Positions 6,265 to 59,880 of a DNA stretch of 64,000 nucleotides are shown here, piece by piece. Position 1 is the stretch's first letter. Every line of letters starts with the position of its first letter. The notes below the pieces were generated by a model. It saw only the letters and a program-made list of their open reading frames with translations, searched no databases and was not told the origin of the DNA. A program made the translations under genes and the position numbers. Source of the stretch: a virus; IMG/VR virus record IMGVR_UViG_3300032462_000002, positions 1-64,000 of that record, one strand, 5' to 3'.

Positions 6265-7269
6265 ATGCCAATTGGATTTGACTGCGGAACATTCAATCTC
6301 GTCTGCTGCCACAGAGACGATAAAGGGGACTTCGTATACAAGAGAGAAGTCAATGCTTTCTTGGAACTCCCATTGGATAATCGTTTCGTCTTCAACATGA
6401 TGAAGACAGCGGGCGTGCCATTGATTGAACGAGACAAGGTTGCTTATGCTTTGGGCGAGGCGGCTTGCAATATGACTTACACAATGAGCCAGCTTGAACT
6501 CAAACGTCCCATGATTCACGGATGTGTCAATCCAAAAGAAAAAGACGCATTCCAGATTATGTCGATCATGATTCACTCATTGATTGATGGAATTACAAAA
6601 GATGGGGAGACGCTTTACTATTGCGTACCAGCCAATGCCATCAATGAAGATACAGACGCCGATTATCATCAAAGAATCCTTGAAGCAATCTTCAAGGCAT
6701 ACAAGGATGAAACGGGTCGCAAAGTAGATGCACACCCAATCAACGAAGCCCTAGCCCTGGTCTATGCAGAACTTGGAAAGAAGGCGTTTACGGGCATTGG
6801 TGTGAGTTTTGGTGCTGGCATGGTTAATCTATGTTATGCGATGTATGGAAATCCTGTTTTCGCTTTTTCGATTGTCAACTCAGGCGATTGGATCGACCGT
6901 CAAGCTGCTAAAGCAACGGGCGAGTCAATCTCTTTCATCAATAAAGAAAAAACGAAAATTGATTTGACTAAAGCTCCCGCCTCGTTGGTGGAACGGGCTA
7001 TTCATACTCAATACAGGCTGATGATAGAACATACCGTACAGGGAATCAAGAAAGGTTTTGCAGACATTACCAAATCGGTTCGTGCCGACGCTCCGGTTGA
7101 CGTGGTAATTGCTGGTGGAACATCTTCTCCTTATGGTTTTGCTACTATCTTCAAGGAAACGATTCAGCAGGCCGACTTGCCAATCAAGATCGGAGAGATC
7201 ATTAAACCTAATGATCCGTTATACAGTGTTGCTCGTGGCTGTCTGCTGGCAGCGGAAGCAGCAAAGTAA
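6265..7269 (+). CDS. Actin/Hsp70-superfamily ATPase (ParM/MreB-like)
   Basis: The protein has 334 residues. It shows the order expected of actin-like ATPases: phosphate-1 loop GFDCGTFNLVCC at residues 4-15, an internal NEALALVYAELG segment, phosphate-2 loop GIGVSFGAGMVNLCYAMYG, and adenosine motif DVVIAGGTSSPYGF near residue 280. The best guess is a filament-forming cytomotive ATPase that positions or segregates DNA or virions in the host cytoplasm. It follows a small coupled gene and precedes a chimeric gene, which may be partners. A non-polymerising Hsp70-like role is the alternative. Confidence 0.8.
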   Translation: MPIGFDCGTFNLVCCHRDDKGDFVYKREVNAFLELPLDNRFVFNMMKTAGVPLIERDKVAYALGEAACNMTYTMSQLELKRPMIHGCVNPKEKDAFQIMSIMIHSLIDGITKDGETLYYCVPANAINEDTDADYHQRILEAIFKAYKDETGRKVDAHPINEALALVYAELGKKAFTGIGVSFGAGMVNLCYAMYGNPVFAFSIVNSGDWIDRQAAKATGESISFINKEKTKIDLTKAPASLVERAIHTQYRLMIEHTVQGIKKGFADITKSVRADAPVDVVIAGGTSSPYGFATIFKETIQQADLPIKIGEIIKPNDPLYSVARGCLLAAEAAK

Positions 7270-10869: not shown

Positions 10870-11802
10870 TCAATTGCCGTGTCTAGTCTGAACCCAGCGA
10901 ACAGTACCACTTTCAGATCGCATAATGACGCTATGTGTTGTTGGTCCACGAGAGTTAACAGAAACTCCCTTCAATAGACTACCATCGGTAATGCCAGTGG
11001 CAGCGAAACAACAATGACTCCTCACCAAGTCATCGTGCGAGAAGGTATCGCCTTTTAGTCCCACATCTTTATCCCAAACTTGAGCCAAGAAGAAGCCTCG
11101 CAAACACTTTACGGCTGCTGCCGTTATCACAGCTTCAGGTGCGCCACCTACGCCATATTGCATATCAATATTTCCATCAGCAGCAGAAATCGCACCAGAG
11201 ATGTCGCAGTCTTGTATCAACTTAATTCTGACTCCCAATTCTCTCATCTGGGCAATGTATTCTTCGTGACGAGGGCGATTGAGAATACAAACCATCAATT
11301 TGTCCACAGGTTTATTTAAGACTTCAGCAACTTGCTTGCACAATTCAGACAATGGGGTGCTGAGATAAAGATTTGTTCTACGAGCCACATCCCCACTGAC
11401 TGCGAGCTTTAGCATGTAATGCTCATCTGTATCAAACATGGTTCCTTTGTCGGCCATAGCAATAACGCTCATGGCTTCTGGCCCTGATGTCACAGTAGGG
11501 GTTGTTCCATCAATAGGATCGAGAGCAATGTCTACTTCTTTTGTGAATAAAGTACGAAGAACAGTTCCACCAAGATGAAGCCAACCACATCCAACACGGT
11601 CGCCCTTAAACAACCCATAACTTTCATCTTTTTTGCCTTCACCAATCTGGACTGTTCCTGCAACGTCCATGCGGTCAAGTCTGTCACGCATTGCGTTGGT
11701 AGCAGCCAAATCAGCTTCGAGTTTCTTGCCACTGCCTACCCAGGCTGCGGCAGCAATTGCCGCAGCTTCAGTTACACGAATCAAGTCCATATTATTGCGC
11801 AT
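10870..11802 (-). CDS. glpX: Class II fructose-1,6-bisphosphatase, GlpX type
   Basis: The protein has 310 residues, the usual size for GlpX enzymes, which remove the 1-phosphate from fructose-1,6-bisphosphate (and in some bacteria sedoheptulose-1,7-bisphosphate). Motifs in order: VQIGEGKKDES (metal/substrate Glu-Glu region), ALDPIDGTTPT (catalytic metal-binding motif, usually DPLEGT), GPEAMSVIAMADKG, IKLIQDCDISGAI, GGAPEAVITAAAVKCLRG, FAATGITDGSLLKGV and SVIMRSESGTVR. All key blocks are present, so it looks intact. It overlaps the upstream gene by 1 bp. In a phage this is an auxiliary metabolic gene that could push carbon toward gluconeogenesis or pentose phosphates. Confidence 0.92.
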   Translation of the reverse strand: MRNNMDLIRVTEAAAIAAAAWVGSGKKLEADLAATNAMRDRLDRMDVAGTVQIGEGKKDESYGLFKGDRVGCGWLHLGGTVLRTLFTKEVDIALDPIDGTTPTVTSGPEAMSVIAMADKGTMFDTDEHYMLKLAVSGDVARRTNLYLSTPLSELCKQVAEVLNKPVDKLMVCILNRPRHEEYIAQMRELGVRIKLIQDCDISGAISAADGNIDMQYGVGGAPEAVITAAAVKCLRGFFLAQVWDKDVGLKGDTFSHDDLVRSHCCFAATGITDGSLLKGVSVNSRGPTTHSVIMRSESGTVRWVQTRHGN

Positions 11803-20581: not shown

Positions 20582-21712
20582 ATGCGTAAGCTGCAACTCG
20601 TTGTCATTGCTTTGAGTATTTTTTTGCTTGCCGTCTATGTTGGCAAGCGTATGGTTGTCGTACCACCAGTTGTGCAAAAGGAATTTGTACCACCCAAAAA
20701 ACCTTTGCTGCCTCCTGAAGTCAAACCGCCGCCAAAGAAGACTTATGATGAAGCCATTGCCGATATTTCCGAGGAAGAACTTCAAAAGCACTTGGAATAT
20801 TTGTGTTCTGCGGAATTAGAAGGTCGGATGTCTGGCAAAAAAGGAAATGTTATTGCTGCCGTATATCTTAAAAAGATATACGAGAGCTTTGGACTCGACA
20901 CGAATTACCAAAAATTCAATATTCAAAGAATGAATGCCGGGCCAAAAAATGAAACAGGTGATGACTTCACACAAAACATCATTGCTTGGATCGAAGGAAC
21001 CGAAATAAAAGATGAGATCGTAGTGGTTGGCGCACACATGGACCATATTGGGTGGGGGCCATCTATGAGTCGATCAGGGGGAAGAAAAATACACCCTGGG
21101 GCCGATGACAACGCATCTGGCACTGTGGCTTTACTTCAAATCGCCAAAACCTTCGCATCTTTACGAGGACAAAATAAAAGAACTGTCGTATTCATGTCTT
21201 TTAGTGCGGAAGAAATGGGATTGATTGGATCACGATATTATTGCGACAATCCACTGTTCCCGCAGGGCAGTCCAAATATACGCAATCACATATTCATGCT
21301 CAATATGGATATGGTTGGATATTTGGGCAAGGCTCGCACCGCAGTCGCATTCAACGAGGGAGAAAGTTCTCCTGATGTGTCCAGCATCATCGGAGAGTTG
21401 AGTGGCAAATACTCATTTGCTAAAAGCATAACAGGCAGAAGTAGTGGAGGCAGCGATCATGCCAGCTTCTACAATAAGAAAGTGCCAATTGCATTCTTGC
21501 ATACTGGAATGCACGACTATTATCACACGCCGAGAGACACAGCGGATAAAATCAATTTCGCTGGCATTGAAAAAGTGGCAAAGTATGGATTTGAATTGGC
21601 TTGGAAAGTCACCAATTCTACTACAAAGCCATCGTTTAATTACGGTGCATTCAGAGAGATGGAATACACTCATGACCACGGACACAAAGATACACCCTTT
21701 CACAAGGAATGA
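20582..21712 (+). CDS. Membrane-anchored or exported M28 zinc aminopeptidase
   Basis: The protein has 376 residues. An N-terminal hydrophobic segment (LQLVVIALSIFLLAVYVG) serves as signal or anchor, followed by a Pro-rich linker. The M28 domain has its zinc and catalytic residues in order: H152 and D154 in GAHMDH, D175/D176 in GADDNASG, Glu pair in FSAEEMGLIGS, D in MLNMDMVGY and H in DYYHTPRDT. It probably trims peptides outside the cytoplasm. The tail (YTHDHGHKDTPFHKE) is His-rich and may bind metal. It overlaps the ferritin-like gene by the ATGA junction. Confidence 0.9.
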   Translation: MRKLQLVVIALSIFLLAVYVGKRMVVVPPVVQKEFVPPKKPLLPPEVKPPPKKTYDEAIADISEEELQKHLEYLCSAELEGRMSGKKGNVIAAVYLKKIYESFGLDTNYQKFNIQRMNAGPKNETGDDFTQNIIAWIEGTEIKDEIVVVGAHMDHIGWGPSMSRSGGRKIHPGADDNASGTVALLQIAKTFASLRGQNKRTVVFMSFSAEEMGLIGSRYYCDNPLFPQGSPNIRNHIFMLNMDMVGYLGKARTAVAFNEGESSPDVSSIIGELSGKYSFAKSITGRSSGGSDHASFYNKKVPIAFLHTGMHDYYHTPRDTADKINFAGIEKVAKYGFELAWKVTNSTTKPSFNYGAFREMEYTHDHGHKDTPFHKE

Positions 21713-27774: not shown

Positions 27775-27828
27775 AGGCTCCTCCTATGATATGTATTGCC
27801 GTCACCATCAAAAAAAGGAGAATCAACC

Positions 27829-28155
27829 ATGAGCGGCCTGTACTACAGCAATTGTGAACTCGATTTCGACACTGAAGAGGATCGCATTATCTTTGCCCAA
27901 GACGAAGATTGGGATGAAGACGAAGAAGACGAAGAAGACAATGACGACGATGATGACGATGATAACGATCTTCTTGATGACGATGATGACGATGATGACG
28001 ATGATGACGATGATGACGACGATCTTCTCGACGATGATGACGATGATGACGATCTCGACGACGATTGGGATGATGACGAAGATGACGATGACGATTGGGA
28101 CGATGACGATGACGAAGACGAAGACGACGAAGACGAAGACGAAGACGATGAGTAA
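27829..28155 (+). CDS. Poly-aspartate protein
   Basis: The protein has 108 residues. After a normal start (MSGLYYSNCELDFDTEEDRI) it becomes a run of Asp with some Glu, Leu and Trp (repeated LLDDDD and WDDDED). The DNA is a near-tandem GAYGAY array with a strong AAAAAAGGAG leader. Such proteins can mimic DNA, bind calcium or act as chaperones; none of this is shown. The high GAC/GAT repetition makes length variation by slippage likely. The stop overlaps the next ATG. Confidence 0.8.
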   Translation: MSGLYYSNCELDFDTEEDRIIFAQDEDWDEDEEDEEDNDDDDDDDNDLLDDDDDDDDDDDDDDDDLLDDDDDDDDLDDDWDDDEDDDDDWDDDDDEDEDDEDEDEDDE

Positions 28156-30954: not shown

Positions 30955-33900
30955 ATGCCACTTTGGTCAGACTTTTTCAAATTGTTCACATATGCCACAG
31001 AGAAAGACCCTCTGTCGGCTCGTAAAGACCCTAAGAACTTCGGGACTGCTGGCATTTCCCAGCCAGAAGCATTAGGGACAGATTTTCAAAGCGGTGGTGG
31101 ACCGGGTGGCCAAACAAGCTACCGTCAAACCAACGACATGATTGACACGACGACACTCTCCAATCGCTCTATGCGATATAAAGAGTATGAGCGTCTGCGT
31201 AATGTCCCGGAAATCGAAATGGCAATGACAGTCTTCGCTGATGAAGCGTGCGTTGCAGGTGATACTCCAATCACAACTCCATTCGGCGTTACAACCATAA
31301 AAGAGTTGGCAGAAAAAAGAGCCGATGAGAGATTTTTGGTTTATTGCTATGACTTCATTAAAAGAGATTACACTCTCGGTTGGGCTTTCGCTCCACGATT
31401 GGTCAAAAAAGCCAAAACTCTAACTATCATCCTGGACAATGGCACAAAGTACACTGCCACCCTGGATCACCTCGTTCTAAAGAAAAACGGGGAATGGATT
31501 GAAACAGGAGAACTTCAGTTCGGCGACGAACTAATGCCGTTTTACCGTCTGTCGGCTGCGTCCGATCTTAAACACAAACAATTTCCTCGTCTATTCAGTT
31601 TTGCAAAAGGCTGGATCAGTGAGCGTCAATTCATCGACGATTGGAAAACAGGCAAAAGTAATCCTGACTATGAAAAAGTAAATCGAGTAATTCGTATGGT
31701 TGGTGGCGGATTAACCACCCGACAAATTGCTAACAAACTAAATTTCGATTGGGCGACAATAGACGCCTGGGTAAAAAAAGAAGGATTCACCCCAAAGGAA
31801 ATCAGAACTCTTTACAAGCACGAAGATCGTCGTAGAGTTGTAGGGATTGAAGAAGGTCCAGAACAAGATGTTTATGACATTTCAGTTGAAGGACACAAAT
31901 GCTTCGCTACGGATTCTGTGATTCTACACAATTGCCAAAAAGATGAAGATGGCAACATATTCAAAGTGATTACAGCAAACGACGAAATTCGTGAAGAAGT
32001 TGAATTTCTGCTGTTGCACCGCAAGATGTTGAATATGAATCGCCAAGGTTGGACATGGTTCAAGAACCTGTGTATTTCTGGCGACTGGTTCGTAGAAATG
32101 GTCATCAATCCAGATAACCCTAAAGAGGGCATTTATCGAGCCATGCCATTGCCTCCCGAAACGATGTATCGCATCGAAACGGTAAAGGGCAAGATGATTG
32201 AGTACCAACAAAGCAAAGAAGGCCCTGATTATCAGGCCATCATACGAGGACCAGTCACCGGACAAAACGAAATGGAATTGAATCAAACGACGGCCATTAG
32301 GTTTGCTCCAAGCCAAGTCGTTCACTTCCGAATTGGCGATGATCGAAAGACATTCTTTCCATACGGTCAGAGCTTAATCGAGCCAGCCCGTGGACCGGCT
32401 CACAGCTTGAGATTGATGGAAGACGCAATGGTCGTATATAGGCTGTGTCTGGTGGGGGATTCCCGTGTTCGCACTGAAGACAGTTATAAACTGATTCGTA
32501 ATCTCAAAGTCGGAGATTGCGTTTGGTCACTTACTCCTAAAGGAATAATCCCAGCAAAGGTTTCCTGGTTCGTCAATAATGGCATTCAGGATATATTGAA
32601 AGTTCGCACTAAGCACGTTGAACTACGGGGAACAAAAACGCACCCAGTTTTGGTCAACAGAACAGGCGTCGTTCAGTATGTAGATATGCAAGATTTGCAA
32701 ATCGGTAAAGATCGCCTATTATTGGTTGACAATGATGCCAATCAACAGGTGGAAATTCCGTTTTTCGAGTCAGAACCGTGGGCTAAGTTATCCAAAGAAC
32801 AATTATTTACTTTCCGCAAAAAACAATACAAAAACAAATCAAACTTGTTGCGAGAATGCCATAATTTTGGTCGAGCCAAGCAATTCCTGTACTGTAAAAA
32901 CAAAGCTCTGCCATTATCCAAAGCAGAAAAGATCTGCGAGGTTTTTGGATTAGACAGTTCAAAATTGATCCAAGTCAATAAAAATCAAAGAAACGAAGAA
33001 CGTATTTCTTTACCATATATTGTTGACGAGGAATTTGCAAGATTGTTTGGTTTTCTATGCGGAGATGGGAACATCCACAATGGTTCTCAATTGTCTTTTT
33101 CAGCCGGAACAGACAAAACAATCAACGAAGTATATCGAGCAAAATTAGAGAACTATTTTGGGAAAGTGCGATTTGAGACAGACAAAAGAAGTTTGACGGG
33201 ATGCGGCAAGCATGTGGTAGATTCTACCTTTGCCTGTTCTTTAATGACGAGAATGGGTTACATCAACAATCATGATTGTAATCGTATTCCAAAATGGGTT
33301 TTCACAGCGCCGAAGAATATTCGCCGTGCATTCATAGAAGGTCTGTCAGACGCCGATGGATGCGAACGTCACACAAATAAAGGCACATGGTTCTCAACTA
33401 TTGAATTATGCAATGAAGAACTCGTCAGAGACATTAAAGAACTATGGTCATCCATTGGATTGAGTTCAGGACATCTAAAAACAAGACATCGTAAAGGTGG
33501 TCATGAAATTGAAATTGGCAGAGTAATGCCGCCAACAACTTCATACTCTGTAACCATTAGTGATGTTTTGCTGCCAGAAGAAGAAAACATTATTTCTATT
33601 GAAGAAGACGGAAAAGAAGAAGTATTTGATATTACAGTGGATAATGAATATCACAATTTCATTGTGAATGGCTGTTGTACACACAACACCCGTGCGCCAG
33701 AACGACGTGTGTTTTATATTGATGTTGGACAACTCCCTCCATTCAAGGCTGAAGCATTTATTGATCGACTGAAAGATCAATTCCGCAAGCGTAAAATCAC
33801 GAGTGGCCGGGGCGCACCAGGAGCAAACTCAGTAGAAGAACGCTGGCAACCACCGGCTCAAGACGAAGACTATTGGCTACCAATTCGTCCAAACAGCCTC

Positions 33901-34737
33901 ACTCGTATTGATACATTGCCGGGTGCTGAAAACTTAGGCGAAATTGACGATGCTGTTTACTTCAGAAACAAGTTGTTGACCAGTTTGAATTTCCCGAAGA
34001 ACTACTTCAACAATGAAGACCCAGGTGCAACCAGAATTACTCTGTCTACTCAAGATGTTAAGTTCGCTCGCATGATTGAGCGGCTACAGAGTCACTTCGA
34101 GGATGGAATCCTGGATATGGCAGAGAGACACTTACATTTGCGAGGTTATCCTGAAGAAAGTTATCAAGACCTAAAGATCAAGATGACGGCTCCTTCGGAT
34201 TGGCGAGAGCTTTCTCGTGCAGAAGTGGTAACGGCCCGCTATACTAATGCTGGTACATTAAAGAGTGGTCAGCTTATGGCTGACTATGATATTGTCACCA
34301 AGATATTAAAGTTTTCCGATGACGAAGCTGATGAAATGCTGGCTCGTTTGAAGTTGCAAAAATTGGAAGACCTCAAACTACAAGTATTGGCGCAGAATCC
34401 ACAACTATTGGGTGTGGGCATTCCTGGGGCTGATGCGGGTGGCGGTCAAGGAGAACTTGGAACCGAACCAGGTGGACCGGGCATGTCGCCTGACCCGATG
34501 GCGGGTGGTGATCCTATGGCAGCAGCAGGCGGTGGAGCAGGCGCTCCTCCACCAACGGCAACGGCTTCTGGGGCAGATGAAACACCCGATGCTGATCCCG
34601 GCTCAAAAGCACCTGAAGGTGCGAACATTCCAGAGCCAGATGGAGAAGACATCAAGAAGTATGATCTTGAGATTCAAGACTACGAGGCCGAGCAGGACCG
34701 AGAAGATATTGACTACAGCGTAGGTGACGAGGGTTAA
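30955..34737 (+). CDS. Portal protein (gp20-like) interrupted by two inteins
   Basis: The 1260-residue precursor holds two inteins. Removing residues 99-326 and 498-911 leaves a portal of about 618 residues, close to T4 gp20 (524) plus a longer C-terminus. Portal identity comes from the DEA/CQKDEDGN region, the conserved TRAPERRVFYIDVGQLPPFK segment, the NYFNNEDPGATRITLSTQDV block and the helical C-terminus. The portal forms the dodecameric head entry ring for DNA. Low-complexity Gly/Pro/Ala sequence fills the last 150 residues. An AGAGAGGG leader precedes the ATG. Confidence 0.93.
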   Translation: MPLWSDFFKLFTYATEKDPLSARKDPKNFGTAGISQPEALGTDFQSGGGPGGQTSYRQTNDMIDTTTLSNRSMRYKEYERLRNVPEIEMAMTVFADEACVAGDTPITTPFGVTTIKELAEKRADERFLVYCYDFIKRDYTLGWAFAPRLVKKAKTLTIILDNGTKYTATLDHLVLKKNGEWIETGELQFGDELMPFYRLSAASDLKHKQFPRLFSFAKGWISERQFIDDWKTGKSNPDYEKVNRVIRMVGGGLTTRQIANKLNFDWATIDAWVKKEGFTPKEIRTLYKHEDRRRVVGIEEGPEQDVYDISVEGHKCFATDSVILHNCQKDEDGNIFKVITANDEIREEVEFLLLHRKMLNMNRQGWTWFKNLCISGDWFVEMVINPDNPKEGIYRAMPLPPETMYRIETVKGKMIEYQQSKEGPDYQAIIRGPVTGQNEMELNQTTAIRFAPSQVVHFRIGDDRKTFFPYGQSLIEPARGPAHSLRLMEDAMVVYRLCLVGDSRVRTEDSYKLIRNLKVGDCVWSLTPKGIIPAKVSWFVNNGIQDILKVRTKHVELRGTKTHPVLVNRTGVVQYVDMQDLQIGKDRLLLVDNDANQQVEIPFFESEPWAKLSKEQLFTFRKKQYKNKSNLLRECHNFGRAKQFLYCKNKALPLSKAEKICEVFGLDSSKLIQVNKNQRNEERISLPYIVDEEFARLFGFLCGDGNIHNGSQLSFSAGTDKTINEVYRAKLENYFGKVRFETDKRSLTGCGKHVVDSTFACSLMTRMGYINNHDCNRIPKWVFTAPKNIRRAFIEGLSDADGCERHTNKGTWFSTIELCNEELVRDIKELWSSIGLSSGHLKTRHRKGGHEIEIGRVMPPTTSYSVTISDVLLPEEENIISIEEDGKEEVFDITVDNEYHNFIVNGCCTHNTRAPERRVFYIDVGQLPPFKAEAFIDRLKDQFRKRKITSGRGAPGANSVEERWQPPAQDEDYWLPIRPNSLTRIDTLPGAENLGEIDDAVYFRNKLLTSLNFPKNYFNNEDPGATRITLSTQDVKFARMIERLQSHFEDGILDMAERHLHLRGYPEESYQDLKIKMTAPSDWRELSRAEVVTARYTNAGTLKSGQLMADYDIVTKILKFSDDEADEMLARLKLQKLEDLKLQVLAQNPQLLGVGIPGADAGGGQGELGTEPGGPGMSPDPMAGGDPMAAAGGGAGAPPPTATASGADETPDADPGSKAPEGANIPEPDGEDIKKYDLEIQDYEAEQDREDIDYSVGDEG
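31249..31932 (+). mobile_element. Intein 1 in the portal gene (228 residues, HTH insert)
   Basis: The intein starts at Cys 99 (CVAGDTPITTPFG, block A) and ends at Asn 326 (VILHN), with Cys 327 as the first downstream extein residue. The last splicing block VYDISVEGHKCFATDS is present. There is no LAGLIDADG endonuclease; instead the middle holds a helix-turn-helix-like segment (TTRQIANKLNFDWATIDAWV). It is a mini-intein with a DNA-binding-like insert. Confidence 0.9.
32446..33687 (+). mobile_element. Intein 2 in the portal gene (414 residues, LAGLIDADG)
   Basis: The intein starts at Cys 498 (CLVGDSRVRTED) and ends at Asn 911 (CCTHN), with Thr 912 following. A homing endonuclease lies inside: RLFGFLCGDGNI and AFIEGLSDADGCE are the two LAGLIDADG-type helices. 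Splicing block VFDITVDNEYHNFIVNGC is intact. It interrupts the portal just before the conserved TRAPERR motif. Confidence 0.92.
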
Positions 34738-38476: not shown

Positions 38477-39157
38477 ATGGATGAAAGATTAAGTCTATTC
38501 GTTGACTGCTGTGACAATGGCGGGTTTGTCTTGAATTTGAATGAGTCAGCTACCGACAAGGGGCTGACTAAGTTCAAAGGCAAGTTTCAAGAGGCCGAGG
38601 CAGTTAACAAAAACAAAAGAATTTACCCCTTTGGTGTTCTCGATGAGAACGTCAAGAAATTGGTTCCCATCGTAGAAGCCCGTGGGCTGGTGGGAGAATT
38701 AGATCACCCGACAGATTCGATCATTCACTTTGAGAAATGTTCTCACGTCATCACTAAGTTGTGGTGGGAGGGAAACAATCTTATGGGTGAAGGAGAAATT
38801 CTGAATACACCGCACGGCAGAATACTGCGAAGTCTTTTGTCAGACGGGGTGAGAGTTGGTATTAGCAGCCGGGGCGTTGGCAACGGTCGCAGTGATGAGA
38901 ATGGCATTCTAGTTATTGGCGAAAGCTACAAACTGATTACCTTCGATGCTGTTGCTGATCCAAGCACCTACAACGCCTTTCAGGAGAAAGTCGTTGGAAA
39001 GAAAGAGAGTTATACACCAATCCCAAGTGATATTCACAAAAATGTGGCGAAAAATGAAGACAGCCGCATACATAAAGTAAATAAAGAAGCACTTATTGCT
39101 TGCTTGGGCGGTATCATTGAACAACAAACTAGCAATATCAAAGCGAGGTTAGGCTAA
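38477..39157 (+). CDS. Prohead maturation protease (gp21-like)
   Basis: The protein has 226 residues. The catalytic pair is H77 in GELDHPTDS and S130 or S131 in GISSRGVGN, as in the T4 gp21 (S80) family. The first 40 residues include NLNESATDKGLTKFKGKF, and the enzyme is expected to cut proheads at [LIV]-x-E sites. It sits between core and scaffold genes, the classic T4 order. The stop overlaps the scaffold ATG (TAATG). Confidence 0.93.
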   Translation: MDERLSLFVDCCDNGGFVLNLNESATDKGLTKFKGKFQEAEAVNKNKRIYPFGVLDENVKKLVPIVEARGLVGELDHPTDSIIHFEKCSHVITKLWWEGNNLMGEGEILNTPHGRILRSLLSDGVRVGISSRGVGNGRSDENGILVIGESYKLITFDAVADPSTYNAFQEKVVGKKESYTPIPSDIHKNVAKNEDSRIHKVNKEALIACLGGIIEQQTSNIKARLG

Positions 39158-40094: not shown

Positions 40095-41531
40095 ATGAAC
40101 GCAAATTCTCGATTTTTGAACGAAGCTAAGGAGCTAGAATCTCGTTGGGGCAAGACCGGACTCCTCGAAGGTATTCAGGACCGTTACGTTCGCTCTGCCA
40201 CAGCAGTTCTACTCGAAAACCAGAGACTCATGAATGAAGTCTCGACCGACACTGGCGACATCGCACAGTTCAAGCGCATCAGCATTCCGCTGGTACGTCG
40301 TATTTACCCACAGTTGATCGCCAACAAGATTGTTAGCGTTCAACCATTGCTAGGCCCAACAGGTCTGGTGTATTACCTACGCTTCCGTTACAGCAGCAAC
40401 AAGGGTGGAACCCGTGGTGCTTCTAACAACGGTGGTTTCCCAGGTGATGACGCCAACTCGTTGATGCAGACCGCTGACGGTACTGCCAACCTGGACATTT
40501 TCTACACCCACCAGTTCATTCAGAACGAAGTAACTTCGACTGATTCTGGTACTGACGCTTCTGCTGTATTCACTCCTTTGGAGCATACACCAGTTTTGGC
40601 CGGTACTGTAACTGGTACGATTTTTGATGGCAGCACTGCTGTTCAGACATTCATCGTATCGTCCGGTGGTAGCTTCACCTTCACTGACATTGGCGCTCCT
40701 AGCGTTAAGGTCACAGCAGGTAGCTTGAACAATAACACTGGCGAACTCGCCATGACCTGGAACTCGGCTCCTGGCGCTAACCACGCTGTCATCAGCTATG
40801 AGTACAACATGGAGTGCCAGCAAGACCTCCCAGAAATCAACCTCGTGATCGAGTCGGAAGAAATTGCCGCCAAGACCCGTAAGTTGAAGGCTGTTTGGTC
40901 ATACGAAGCACAGCAAGACCTCCGCAGCCAGCACAATCTGGATGCAGAAGCCGAACTGACCGCTGTATTGGCTCAGGAAATTAACCTGGAAATAGATCGT
41001 GAAGTTTTGACCGACCTGCGTAACAACGCTGGTACTGTCACAGCTTGGGACTTCAATACTGCTCTTGGTGAAACCATCAAGGAAAAGTATGAATCTCTGT
41101 ATGTTAAGGTTGTTGAAGTTTCTAACGTCATCCACCGTAAGACCCTCCGTGGTGGTGCTAACTGGCTCGTAACTAGCCCTGAAGTTGCCTCGATCTTCGA
41201 GACAGCAACAGCAGGCTTCGCACCAGCACCTAGCGAAACATTTACTAGCAGCCTGGGCATCCAGTATGTTGGTACAGTGAACAATAGGTGGCGTCTGTAC
41301 AAAGACCCTCTGTTCCCATCCAACCAGATTTTGATGGGTTACAAGGGCGATAGCTACATGGATAGCGGTTACTTCTACTGCCCATACGTTCCGCTGACAC
41401 AGACACCTGTGGTCCTCGACCCAGAATCGTTCTGTCCTCGTAAGGGAATTTTGACGAGATATGGAAAAAAATTATTGCGTGAGGGTGCTAAATTCTACGC
41501 ACGCATGTCGATTGCGAATTTCGTGATCTAG
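40095..41531 (+). CDS. Major capsid protein (gp23-like)
   Basis: The protein has 478 residues. It matches the T4 gp23 plan: an N-terminal LLEG...LLENQ helix, VRRIYPQLIANKIVSVQPLL then GPTGLVYYLRF, a central insert domain (FTPLEHTPVLAGTVTGT), and the late conserved YKDPLFPSNQILMGYKGD then YCPYVPLTQTPVV segment. RFLNEAKEL near the start and RLMNEVSTD around residue 50 could be protease sites. It forms the hexamers of the head. A strong terminator follows. Confidence 0.95.
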   Translation: MNANSRFLNEAKELESRWGKTGLLEGIQDRYVRSATAVLLENQRLMNEVSTDTGDIAQFKRISIPLVRRIYPQLIANKIVSVQPLLGPTGLVYYLRFRYSSNKGGTRGASNNGGFPGDDANSLMQTADGTANLDIFYTHQFIQNEVTSTDSGTDASAVFTPLEHTPVLAGTVTGTIFDGSTAVQTFIVSSGGSFTFTDIGAPSVKVTAGSLNNNTGELAMTWNSAPGANHAVISYEYNMECQQDLPEINLVIESEEIAAKTRKLKAVWSYEAQQDLRSQHNLDAEAELTAVLAQEINLEIDREVLTDLRNNAGTVTAWDFNTALGETIKEKYESLYVKVVEVSNVIHRKTLRGGANWLVTSPEVASIFETATAGFAPAPSETFTSSLGIQYVGTVNNRWRLYKDPLFPSNQILMGYKGDSYMDSGYFYCPYVPLTQTPVVLDPESFCPRKGILTRYGKKLLREGAKFYARMSIANFVI

Positions 41532-41562: not shown

Positions 41563-41597
41563 AAAGAAACCTACCGACACTATGTCGGTAGGTTTCT
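41563..41597. terminator. Bidirectional terminator after the capsid gene
   Basis: A perfect 16-bp stem (AAGAAACCTACCGACA with its reverse complement) and CTA loop at 41563-41597, with A-rich sequence before and CTTATT after. It can stop capsid transcription and the convergent homing endonuclease gene, whose stop codon lies at its edge. Confidence 0.9.
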
Positions 41598-42775
41598 TAT
41601 TGGTTTTTACAAACGTAGCTGCGAAGAAGTGCTTCTTTCGTGTCCACGTTTAGCGACTTGAGGTAAACTTCGTCCCACACCAGGAACACCCCGCCCTCAT
41701 CCCTCGCAAGTTCCTTGCCTCGATTTTCCTTCGCTATATTGATCTCGTCTGTCCTCTTAAAACCCGGCTTCACTTCGACAAAGTAAAGTTTTTCGTCACC
41801 AATGTATTTGACTAGAAAATCTAGCACATATCTATGGGTTTTTCCCAGGTAGACATAATCAATCCCGAACGGCTCGAAATCATACCACTCGACTGATTGA
41901 TTTTCGCTTAGGTGGATGTGAGCGATCAATTCCAGATGCGATCTGAAATAAGGGTTCGTTTTCCTGCATTTGCCTGCCGGATGAGAAATCCATCCTGTTA
42001 TGTGTCCTTGATTCCATCGTCCTCCAGCCCACTTTCCCGACGTAATTAAGTCGATCATCGTTTTGCTTTGCTTCTGATTCCACTCTTCTGGCCTTGTAAT
42101 GCCTTTTGCCCAAGGATTTGCGTAGCTTTCAGCGAGCCATGTTGTGCAGTTCTGGCGTAGATAATCTTTCATTTCTGGTAGTTGGTTGTAGTGTTCAACT
42201 CCATATTTCTCCAGAGTGGTGATTGCTCCTTTAACTCGGACTTCAGGCAAGCTCAAAGGATTATCTACTCCATACCGTTCTTGACAAGTTTGTCGCATTT
42301 TCTCCTGGATTTTTTCAGATTGAAGAGGAAAGTCTACGCCATATTTTTCTTGCATAGCTTCATTAAGTCGCCGTATGCCTTCATCGGTTTTCATGATATG
42401 GTCGGCCCCATATCGCTTCACAGAAGTTTCCCGTCGTTTGTTGACAATTTTCTGCGTAGATTCCTCAGTACCGAACATCTTTTCAACCCGTTCAGCGATC
42501 TTTTCCGGTGTATTGATCGGCATGGCAGTGCCATATTTTGCGATATTGGTTTTCTCAATTTTATCTCGAACCTCTTTGCGATTAGCGGGGTTATTCGCTG
42601 CCATTTGACATGAACGGCAAATATGCTTGCCGCCATGTGCATCAGCATTCTTTTGAGCAACGCTGTATATTGGCGTAGACTCCGTTCCGCACAATTTGAA
42701 CCCGCCGTTACAATCGTACTTGATCCGCACCCGTTGTCCAGGTAGTAGATTCGCAGGAATCTTTTCGATGTACAT
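41597..42775 (-). CDS. Homing endonuclease with KYGV-type repeats and PD-(D/E)XK C-terminus
   Basis: The protein has 392 residues. After two Cys pairs (CNGGFKLC and CRSCQ) it carries five copies of a [KR]YG-[VAT] DNA-binding-like unit (KYGTAMPINTPEKI, RYGADHIMKTDEGI, KYGVDFPLQSEKI, RYGVDNPLSLPEV, KYGVEHYNQLPEM). The end shows a nuclease core YVLDFLVKYIGDEKLYFVEV then KPGF (D...E-V-K). This fits Vsr/Hef-like free-standing homing enzymes. It lies directly behind the capsid gene, a site that such elements often target. Confidence 0.82.
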   Translation of the reverse strand: MYIEKIPANLLPGQRVRIKYDCNGGFKLCGTESTPIYSVAQKNADAHGGKHICRSCQMAANNPANRKEVRDKIEKTNIAKYGTAMPINTPEKIAERVEKMFGTEESTQKIVNKRRETSVKRYGADHIMKTDEGIRRLNEAMQEKYGVDFPLQSEKIQEKMRQTCQERYGVDNPLSLPEVRVKGAITTLEKYGVEHYNQLPEMKDYLRQNCTTWLAESYANPWAKGITRPEEWNQKQSKTMIDLITSGKWAGGRWNQGHITGWISHPAGKCRKTNPYFRSHLELIAHIHLSENQSVEWYDFEPFGIDYVYLGKTHRYVLDFLVKYIGDEKLYFVEVKPGFKRTDEINIAKENRGKELARDEGGVFLVWDEVYLKSLNVDTKEALLRSYVCKNQ

Positions 42776-58721: not shown

Positions 58722-59297
58722 TTACTCGTATTTTTCAATCAAGAAATTTGGCAACTTAGGAGCGATGATTGAAAGCAATTCAAACGCTCCTTTATTGGTA
58801 AACACGATTTCGTATCTGCCTCTACACTGATGCAGATCACAGGTGCAATCTAGCGAATTGAAATATTCAGCTATGATCTTTGTGCCTTCTTCGCCAAACT
58901 TGTGAGTCCGCAAATAGGCTTTTCTTTTACTTTTCCGACCGGCATCAACAAACCAAACCATCCAGGCTTCGTCTGTCAATATTTCCAGCATCTCACGAGT
59001 CACTGTCTTAGCGCCATCTTTGTAATACATTTCGTATGCTTCATTGAAGATTGGAAAAGCAACACTGTAACACCTGTAAGTGTTTTTGTCTTTCTTGATG
59101 GTATTTTGGTCGATCTTGAAGAAATCCTTTAAGACCTCGATCTTATAAGACAACCACATATTGTCGTGGTCACGCATGGCGAGGTAACAATTCTTACCAC
59201 GCTCAGGGTGAATGATAGAGGAGCCTCCAAGGATGGTCCCGTATAGCACTTGTCTCTGGCTGTCTTTTAAGTTTGGTCCGCACTGATAAGTCATCAT
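58722..59297 (-). CDS. LAGLIDADG homing endonuclease
   Basis: The protein has 191 residues. QVLYGTILGGSSIIHPERGK and WMVWFVDAGRKSKRKAYLRT are the two LAGLIDADG-type helices, spaced as in PF03161 enzymes; CYLAMRDHDNMWLSYKIEVL is the usual next helix. It starts at the ATG pair at 59297/59294 preceded by CAAGGAG; the upstream frame to 59846 is opposite other genes. No intron or intein is obvious around it, so it is probably free-standing. Confidence 0.82.
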   Translation of the reverse strand: MMTYQCGPNLKDSQRQVLYGTILGGSSIIHPERGKNCYLAMRDHDNMWLSYKIEVLKDFFKIDQNTIKKDKNTYRCYSVAFPIFNEAYEMYYKDGAKTVTREMLEILTDEAWMVWFVDAGRKSKRKAYLRTHKFGEEGTKIIAEYFNSLDCTCDLHQCRGRYEIVFTNKGAFELLSIIAPKLPNFLIEKYE

Positions 59298-59432
59298 TGT
59301 CTCCTTGTTGCCATATATACGTTTCGCAACATTGTTCCCGAAGATATGTAGTAGAAATCGGAATAAAAATATGAGCAGCATAGCTATTGTGAACAAAAAG
59401 TTCACTCGCATTAAAAAAAGGAGATAAATACT

Positions 59433-59771
59433 ATGGGAGCAACAAGCGTAACAGGCGTTAGTGGTCCAGGAAGCGTAGCCGGTCTTCAGAAGGGTTCGGA
59501 GCATATGTCTCTTGGCGTAGCCAAGTTGATTGGTCCGAAGGTTTCTGCTGCTGGTAAGATTACTTTGACTGGCACAACTGGCGTTGTAGAATTTCCAGAA
59601 TTGGTTGGTGTAGTTGGCGATTACGTCGTCATGTTGACTGCTAATAGCGTCACACATGTTTTCGTTTCGACACCATTGGCCGCTATTGCAAGCACAGATC
59701 AGTGGGGATTCGTCGCAACTGGTGGTACTAATGCAGTAGTTAATTGGGCAGTCGTTAAAGTCGGCAACTAA
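59433..59771 (+). CDS. Small beta-rich structural protein
   Basis: The protein has 112 residues and starts MGATSVTGVSGPGSVAGLQK, shared with the protein at 50923. The body is beta-strand-rich (GKITLTGTTGVVEFPELVGV, VVNWAVVKVGN). AAAAAAAGGAG gives a strong start. It is probably a decoration-type virion protein. The following 110 bases hold no gene; a terminator lies at 59881. Confidence 0.65.
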   Translation: MGATSVTGVSGPGSVAGLQKGSEHMSLGVAKLIGPKVSAAGKITLTGTTGVVEFPELVGVVGDYVVMLTANSVTHVFVSTPLAAIASTDQWGFVATGGTNAVVNWAVVKVGN

Positions 59772-59880
59772 TTGATGACAAAATGAAAGAATTGAATGAA
59801 GCAAAAAAGTGATGCCCGGCAGCATTGCTCTTTTGGAAAAAGGCAAAACTCATCCTTATTAGCCTTTCTAATTAAGCTAA

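Follow-up and report, generated by a model that had tools for sequence, protein, structure and literature searches.

Inteins are expected to follow a cycle in which they are gained, then lose the endonuclease and finally disappear altogether, and mini-inteins consist of essentially the splicing domain only, about 130-160 amino acids. Here we analyzed a portal protein gene that carries two inteins, intein 1 and intein 2, in a stretch of 64,000 nucleotides, hereafter the window, which forms part (positions 1 to 64,000) of the 106,870-base virus record IMGVR_UViG_3300032462_000002 of IMG/VR. What appears to be new at this locus is intein 1, which carries a predicted helix-turn-helix (HTH) domain and is fixed in a clade of phage portals; two inteins in a portal are an already known sort of arrangement.

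In the TliVMA intein and PI-TkoII (PMC8966425), as in intein 1, an HTH domain of the DNA-binding type is inserted in the Hint domain. There it accompanies a LAGLIDADG endonuclease, whereas in intein 1 it stands alone. The RadA intein of Pyrococcus horikoshii (PMC8987985; structures 4e2t and 2lqm) resembles intein 1 in being endonuclease-free and in residing in a DNA-handling protein. Its splicing is described as responsive to single-stranded DNA, which makes it a model for a link between splicing and DNA, and, as far as the text was available, no HTH insert is mentioned; intein 1 has the HTH, and a response of intein 1 to DNA would be hypothetical, by analogy. When the model of the whole of intein 1 was compared with viral models, the best match was the HNH intein of Bacillus phage SP-15 (SP15_022), with a template-modelling score (TMq) of 0.69, compared with 0.44-0.56 for solved inteins. 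Homology of the Hint domains is clear, but the SP-15 intein has an HNH core, which intein 1 lacks, and the profiles of the inserts show no significant similarity. NCBIfam NF052663, an intein of an RtcB-related protein, matched all 32 intein 1 members (best E-value 5e-23), the window copy over its full length, but it belongs to a different host protein and site and did not match the insert of intein 1 alone. As in the window, inteins are found in the portals of cluster C1 mycobacteriophages, which are different phages; six are listed (PMC5050341). Intein-rich large phages have been described (PMC12363816, PMC7886860), and inteins go unmentioned in the main text of the huge-phage paper. A literature search found no prior account of a clade-fixed portal intein with an HTH domain, which is weak evidence, as many journals lie outside its coverage.

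The portal gene is a single ATG-started open reading frame (ORF; 30955-34737, plus strand) of 1260 amino acids with no internal stop. Its match to Portal_T4 (PF07230; E-value 1.4e-68) is split by two stretches matching Intein_splicing (PF14890). The NCBIfam models for the N-terminal and C-terminal parts of inteins (TIGR01445 and TIGR01443) matched twice each, and LAGLIDADG_3 matched once. The joined exteins aligned with gp20 of phage T4 (3ja7; E-value 9.2e-35), which identifies the protein as a portal of the T4 type. The gene is divided as follows.

30955..31248, plus strand: portal N-extein, amino acids 1-98, ending in FADEA (Portal_T4 match; intein-free portals align over the junction)
31249..31932, plus strand: intein 1, class 1, 228 amino acids, no endonuclease, from C1 to H227-N228, followed by Cys+1 (PF14890, TIGR01445, Hint fold predicted by AlphaFold2, relatives at the identical site)
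31558..31830, plus strand: insert of intein 1 at the endonuclease position, a predicted beta-hairpin and five helices including an HTH, with the motif GWxxERQFxDEW (AlphaFold2, HTH profiles)
31933..32445, plus strand: portal middle extein, amino acids 327-497, starting with CQKDE and ending in VVYRL (alignment with relatives)
32446..33687, plus strand: intein 2, class 1, 414 amino acids, predicted LAGLIDADG endonuclease, from C1 to HN, followed by Thr+1 (PF14890, LAGLIDADG_3 with E-value 2e-6, alignment with two motifs, patchy occurrence)
33688..34737, plus strand: portal C-extein, starting with TRAPERRVFYIDVG and ending in an acidic tail rich in Pro, Gly and Ala (Portal_T4 match at 912-1128, alignment with T4 gp20, 3ja7)

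An earlier note, made from the letters of the window, had read the gene as a portal with two inteins of different type, and the Pfam and NCBIfam matches, the DNA and the alignments bore this out. Its boundaries, with Cys+1 and Thr+1, were correct; at intein 1, the DNA at 31240-31935 reads GAT GAA GCG/TGC ... CAC AAT/TGC (slash, junction), and the junctions are exact to the base. Intein-free homologous portals, whose failure to align across the junctions had been named as the finding that would speak against the inteins, aligned without gaps at both sites (L238 and L250, in which the wrong ORFs had been taken, were excluded). These relatives are continuous, for example, as DIYADDS/TQ at site 1 (TVFADEA/CQ in the window) and as YRL/ARAPERR at site 2 (YRL/TRAPERR in the window). 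The record is a metagenome-derived contig and possibly a fragment, so one might ask whether the inteins or their junctions are artefacts of assembly or translation. This has practically no probability: it is contradicted by the same architecture in more than 100 distinct portals and in a huge-phage genome of 595 kb.

Both sites had also been called highly conserved in portals. This holds for site 2, which on T4 gp20 falls immediately ahead of the motif TRAPDRR or TRAPERR; T4-type portals share this RAPERR motif as a conserved feature. Conservation of site 1 extends to the clade and its nearest intein-free relatives (YAD[DE]x/xQ) but not in T4 gp20, where it maps to an unremarkable position in the N-terminal region.

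Relatives were collected in five viral scans, two anchored on intein 1 or its insert and three on the portal exteins only. Several hundred loci were obtained, among them loci on contigs of 511 and 527 kb; the clade therefore includes huge phages. Among the distinct clade portals in which site 1 could be read, 113 of 113 carried intein 1, at one site and with a length of 228-237 amino acids; 112 of them reach at least about 43% identity in the middle extein, and the remaining one is the divergent L049 type. There were 115 distinct portals at or above this identity: 112 had the full intein 1, in two the sequence started within the intein, at a contig end, and one began after it. No empty site 1 was found among the clade members readable there, and the only cases without the intein were these contig-end truncations. 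Below about 43% identity, intein 1 was absent. Because three of the scans used exteins only, the universality of intein 1 does not come from the use of the intein as a query. In the closest named genome, that of an uncultured 595-kb phage (LR756511.1), intein 1 is at the same site with 50% identity, and there is no intein 2. One intein 1 portal (L048:5725-8202) was split into many frame pieces in a 36-kb contig, probably by sequencing errors.

The trees of intein 1 and of the exteins were largely congruent. Twenty of the 24 strongly supported extein splits were found again in the tree of intein 1 (27 splits in all), the distances gave an r of 0.84, and there was one strong conflict. Together with the presence of the intein throughout the clade, this suggests, as the most likely history, a single gain of intein 1 that preceded the radiation of the clade, followed by vertical inheritance with the portal.

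Eight residues (C1, T71, D73, H74, D210, H216, H227 and N228) were invariant in the 32 intein 1 members, and C...HN/C was present in 77 of the 77 intein 1 loci examined. AlphaFold2 placed the Hint fold and the insert in one high-confidence model of the whole intein (predicted local distance difference test score, pLDDT, 95.5; predicted template-modelling score, pTM, 0.89), which matched solved inteins in Foldseek (E-value 1.8e-8, target template-modelling score, TMt, up to 0.86). As no copy examined has lost its catalytic residues, we infer that each of the two inteins is spliced out and that the portal becomes functional only after both events.

Intein 1 had been described as a mini-intein with an HTH-like insert. 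It has no endonuclease, but it is not minimal: its 228-237 amino acids, beyond the size of a mini-intein, include a folded domain of about 93 amino acids (93-97 across members) at the endonuclease position. The HTH-like character of the insert was confirmed by HTH profiles in the best members and by the predicted fold. Among the 32 members, Pfam HTH families matched single inserts, with a best E-value of 1.4e-5 for HTH_28 and of 5.1e-5 for HTH_23; the window's own copy was below the Pfam cut-off for HTH families. Modelled alone, the insert reached a pLDDT of 87. Its best structural neighbours were DNA-binding domains of the NarL/LuxR type (probability 0.99, root-mean-square deviation 2.1 A over 61 columns, but E-value 0.13). 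The net charge was +2 to +9 in all 32 members, and the only invariant positions were G, W, E, W and L. The models thus point to an HTH domain of a DNA-binding type, and the insert may bind DNA.

The insert-anchored viral scan gave 149 matches; the 77 loci examined from these were all portals with a full intein 1, and the insert was not found in any other protein among them. A scan of bacterial genomes with the whole of intein 1 gave no match. One locus was matched by the insert in bacterial genomes, but it was rejected as a bacterial occurrence, being the same phage portal on a Neisseriaceae scaffold. This 77-kb scaffold (L296, RXKI01000042.1), filed under a metagenome-assembled genome, has the same portal type with both inteins and may be a misbinned phage contig or a hint of the host.

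The pooled ratio of nonsynonymous to synonymous substitution rates was 0.083-0.099 for the insert, 0.092-0.094 for Hint-N and 0.012-0.060 for the exteins. Constraint on the insert is therefore equal to that on the splicing domain and somewhat weaker than that on the exteins. The earlier note had called the replacement of the endonuclease by an HTH insert in intein 1 unusual, but it lacked the main point, which is the fixation of intein 1 throughout the clade and the purifying selection on its insert.

From these sequences, intein 1 looks like a mobile element that has turned into a permanent, still-selected part of the portal gene. Its permanence could also be that of a trapped, harmless selfish relic with no role for the phage: with no intein-free allele left for recombination and exact deletion rare, the intein would stay, and its insert would be needed only for folding. 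We regard this as a serious possibility, though we lean slightly against it. No intein-free alleles were found in the clade; the splicing residues are all kept, as for any intein obliged to leave an essential protein; a single high-confidence model covers insert and Hint domain together; and the two are equally constrained. On the other hand, the insert folds alone in the prediction, and its length hardly changes despite strong sequence divergence. In addition, four residues upstream of site 1, the outgroup portals L082 and L143 carry a short intein of about 137-140 amino acids (137 in L082, a similar one in L143) with no insert, which shows that an intein in this protein context can do without one.

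The positive charge in all members, the NarL-like predicted fold, the clade-wide fixation and the purifying selection would also fit a domesticated intein whose HTH contacts DNA and couples portal maturation to it, or which acts after excision as a small late DNA-binding regulator of 228 amino acids. The RadA intein of P. horikoshii offers a precedent for a response to single-stranded DNA (PMC8987985). Against this stands the fast evolution of the recognition region, and we consider such a role unlikely. A version in which the HTH senses or binds phage DNA and thereby gates portal splicing, or regulates after excision, appears to us slightly more doubtful still. If true, domestication would account for both the fixation of intein 1 and the selection on its insert across a clade of huge phages.

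As to the origin of the insert, HTH accessory domains adjoin endonucleases in archaeal inteins (PMC8966425), so the simplest course is that the endonuclease was lost and the DNA-recognition part retained. We think it most probable that the insert derives from a homing endonuclease that was lost, of which it would be the DNA-recognition part. Descent from an HNH intein is plausible: the match to the SP-15 intein is the higher one when modelled structures of whole inteins are compared, and sequence profiles give no support. A likeness, seen by eye, of RIFTxxKGWIHERQFVDEW to the start of the HNH domain in site-3 inteins (YEQVYDNKSKTWIFTHRLVSNY) had suggested an HNH relic; it was negative in hhalign and is kept only as a possibility. 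A portal with intein 1 and a third-site intein of 286 amino acids (L191:3966-7367), which has lost its HNH core and kept the flanking parts, provides a snapshot of endonuclease decay.

Hidden HNH endonucleases are reported in phage insertion elements (PMC11855218), and the window has an apparently free-standing LAGLIDADG_2 ORF (58722-59846, minus strand; E-value 2e-23) with a relative in LR756511.1. Intein 1 might thus still home by means of a nuclease hidden in its insert or of a free-standing endonuclease acting in trans. This is very improbable: no nuclease family or fold was matched in the insert in profile and structure searches, no HNH motif was present in any intein 1 member, nor was a conserved His pair, His/Asp or metal-binding set, no intein-free alleles to invade were found, and inheritance appears vertical.

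Intein 2 differs from intein 1 in its distribution. Site 2 was occupied in 13 of 112 distinct readable portals, and intein 2 was 57-59% identical to three other copies. Its alignment has two LAGLIDADG motifs with acidic residues, FARLFGFLCGDG and AFIEGLSDADG, and PF14528 matched above the cut-off, so the endonuclease had been correctly recognized. Eight occurrences were mapped on the extein tree, and they require eight changes, a number imposed by branches with strong support. Very close portals differed by an exact empty site 2 (L005 versus the window, L010 versus L008, and L017 versus L020); the pair L026/L028, out of register by one codon, was left out of this comparison. Between L020 and L017, synonymous differences clustered within 12 nucleotides of site 2 (7/24, compared with 24/876, a background of 2.7%; p 3e-6). 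Judged from its sequence, intein 2 is an ordinary two-motif LAGLIDADG homing intein with a predicted endonuclease. In co-infection, this endonuclease would cut intein-free portal alleles at the YRL/TRAPERR codons, and the intein would then be copied in; we propose that such homing into intein-free alleles explains the patchy distribution. A decaying intein 2 of 262 amino acids, with a degenerate LAGLIDADG domain and most of the endonuclease lost, was seen in L067:2200-5538.

The arrangement of two inteins in one portal had been taken as rare. It is uncommon but not singular, given the 13 filled sites among portals with intein 1, and two other portals have three inteins each. In L082:205-5289, a related portal ORF of 1695 amino acids, the short intein near site 1 is joined by one with LAGLIDADG at site 2 and by one with HNH between LPGG and NLGEIDD. 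In L137:1-3687 (LR756508.1, a 484-kb phage), the three inteins of a T4-like portal occupy other positions; two of them are short, and the third has HNH.

We consider it probable that the locus as a whole combines a homing intein 2 with an ancient, endonuclease-free and vertically inherited intein 1 that has an HTH domain. A single portal precursor would then have to splice twice, and the HTH domain would have been kept because intein 1 has come to rely on it, be it for folding and splicing or through contact with DNA. The former need is somewhat more likely than a DNA-linked role. Several points weigh against this explanation. For the insert alone, Foldseek gave weak E-values, none better than 0.1. 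By pairwise identity, the HTH is the fastest-evolving part of intein 1, which does not suggest one conserved DNA target; as the length of the insert is nearly constant while its identity falls fastest, selection looks to have acted on the fold rather than on a fixed sequence. The comparison by hhalign of the insert, whole and in halves, with the inserts of eight HNH inteins gave nothing, with E-values of 0.11 or worse and probabilities under 1%. Of the three close pairs tested, two showed no significant clustering of synonymous differences at site 2.

Downstream of the portal are further head genes, for a prohead protease at 38477 and the major capsid protein at 40095. The latter is adjoined by a gene for a DUF7487 protein with a TnsA-like endonuclease domain (41597-42775, minus strand). 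Elsewhere in the window are an ORF of mostly Asp/Glu repeats (27796-28155, plus strand), and three genes found here in a phage, for a Volactin (6265-7269, plus strand; E-value 2e-69), a GlpX-type fructose-bisphosphatase (10870-11802, minus strand; E-value 2e-94) and an M28 peptidase (20582-21712, plus strand; E-value 2e-40). No group I introns or other known RNAs were found in the window at the gathering threshold.

For annotation, these results call for caution, as portal genes of huge phages can contain one to three inteins. In the same gene, two inteins appear to have met opposite fates: intein 2 is probably still mobile, whereas intein 1 has no endonuclease and is fixed and under selection in all the clade members sampled. 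With a small protein, many natural variants and a retained domain of the DNA-binding type, the question of whether an intein can be useful to its host becomes directly testable.

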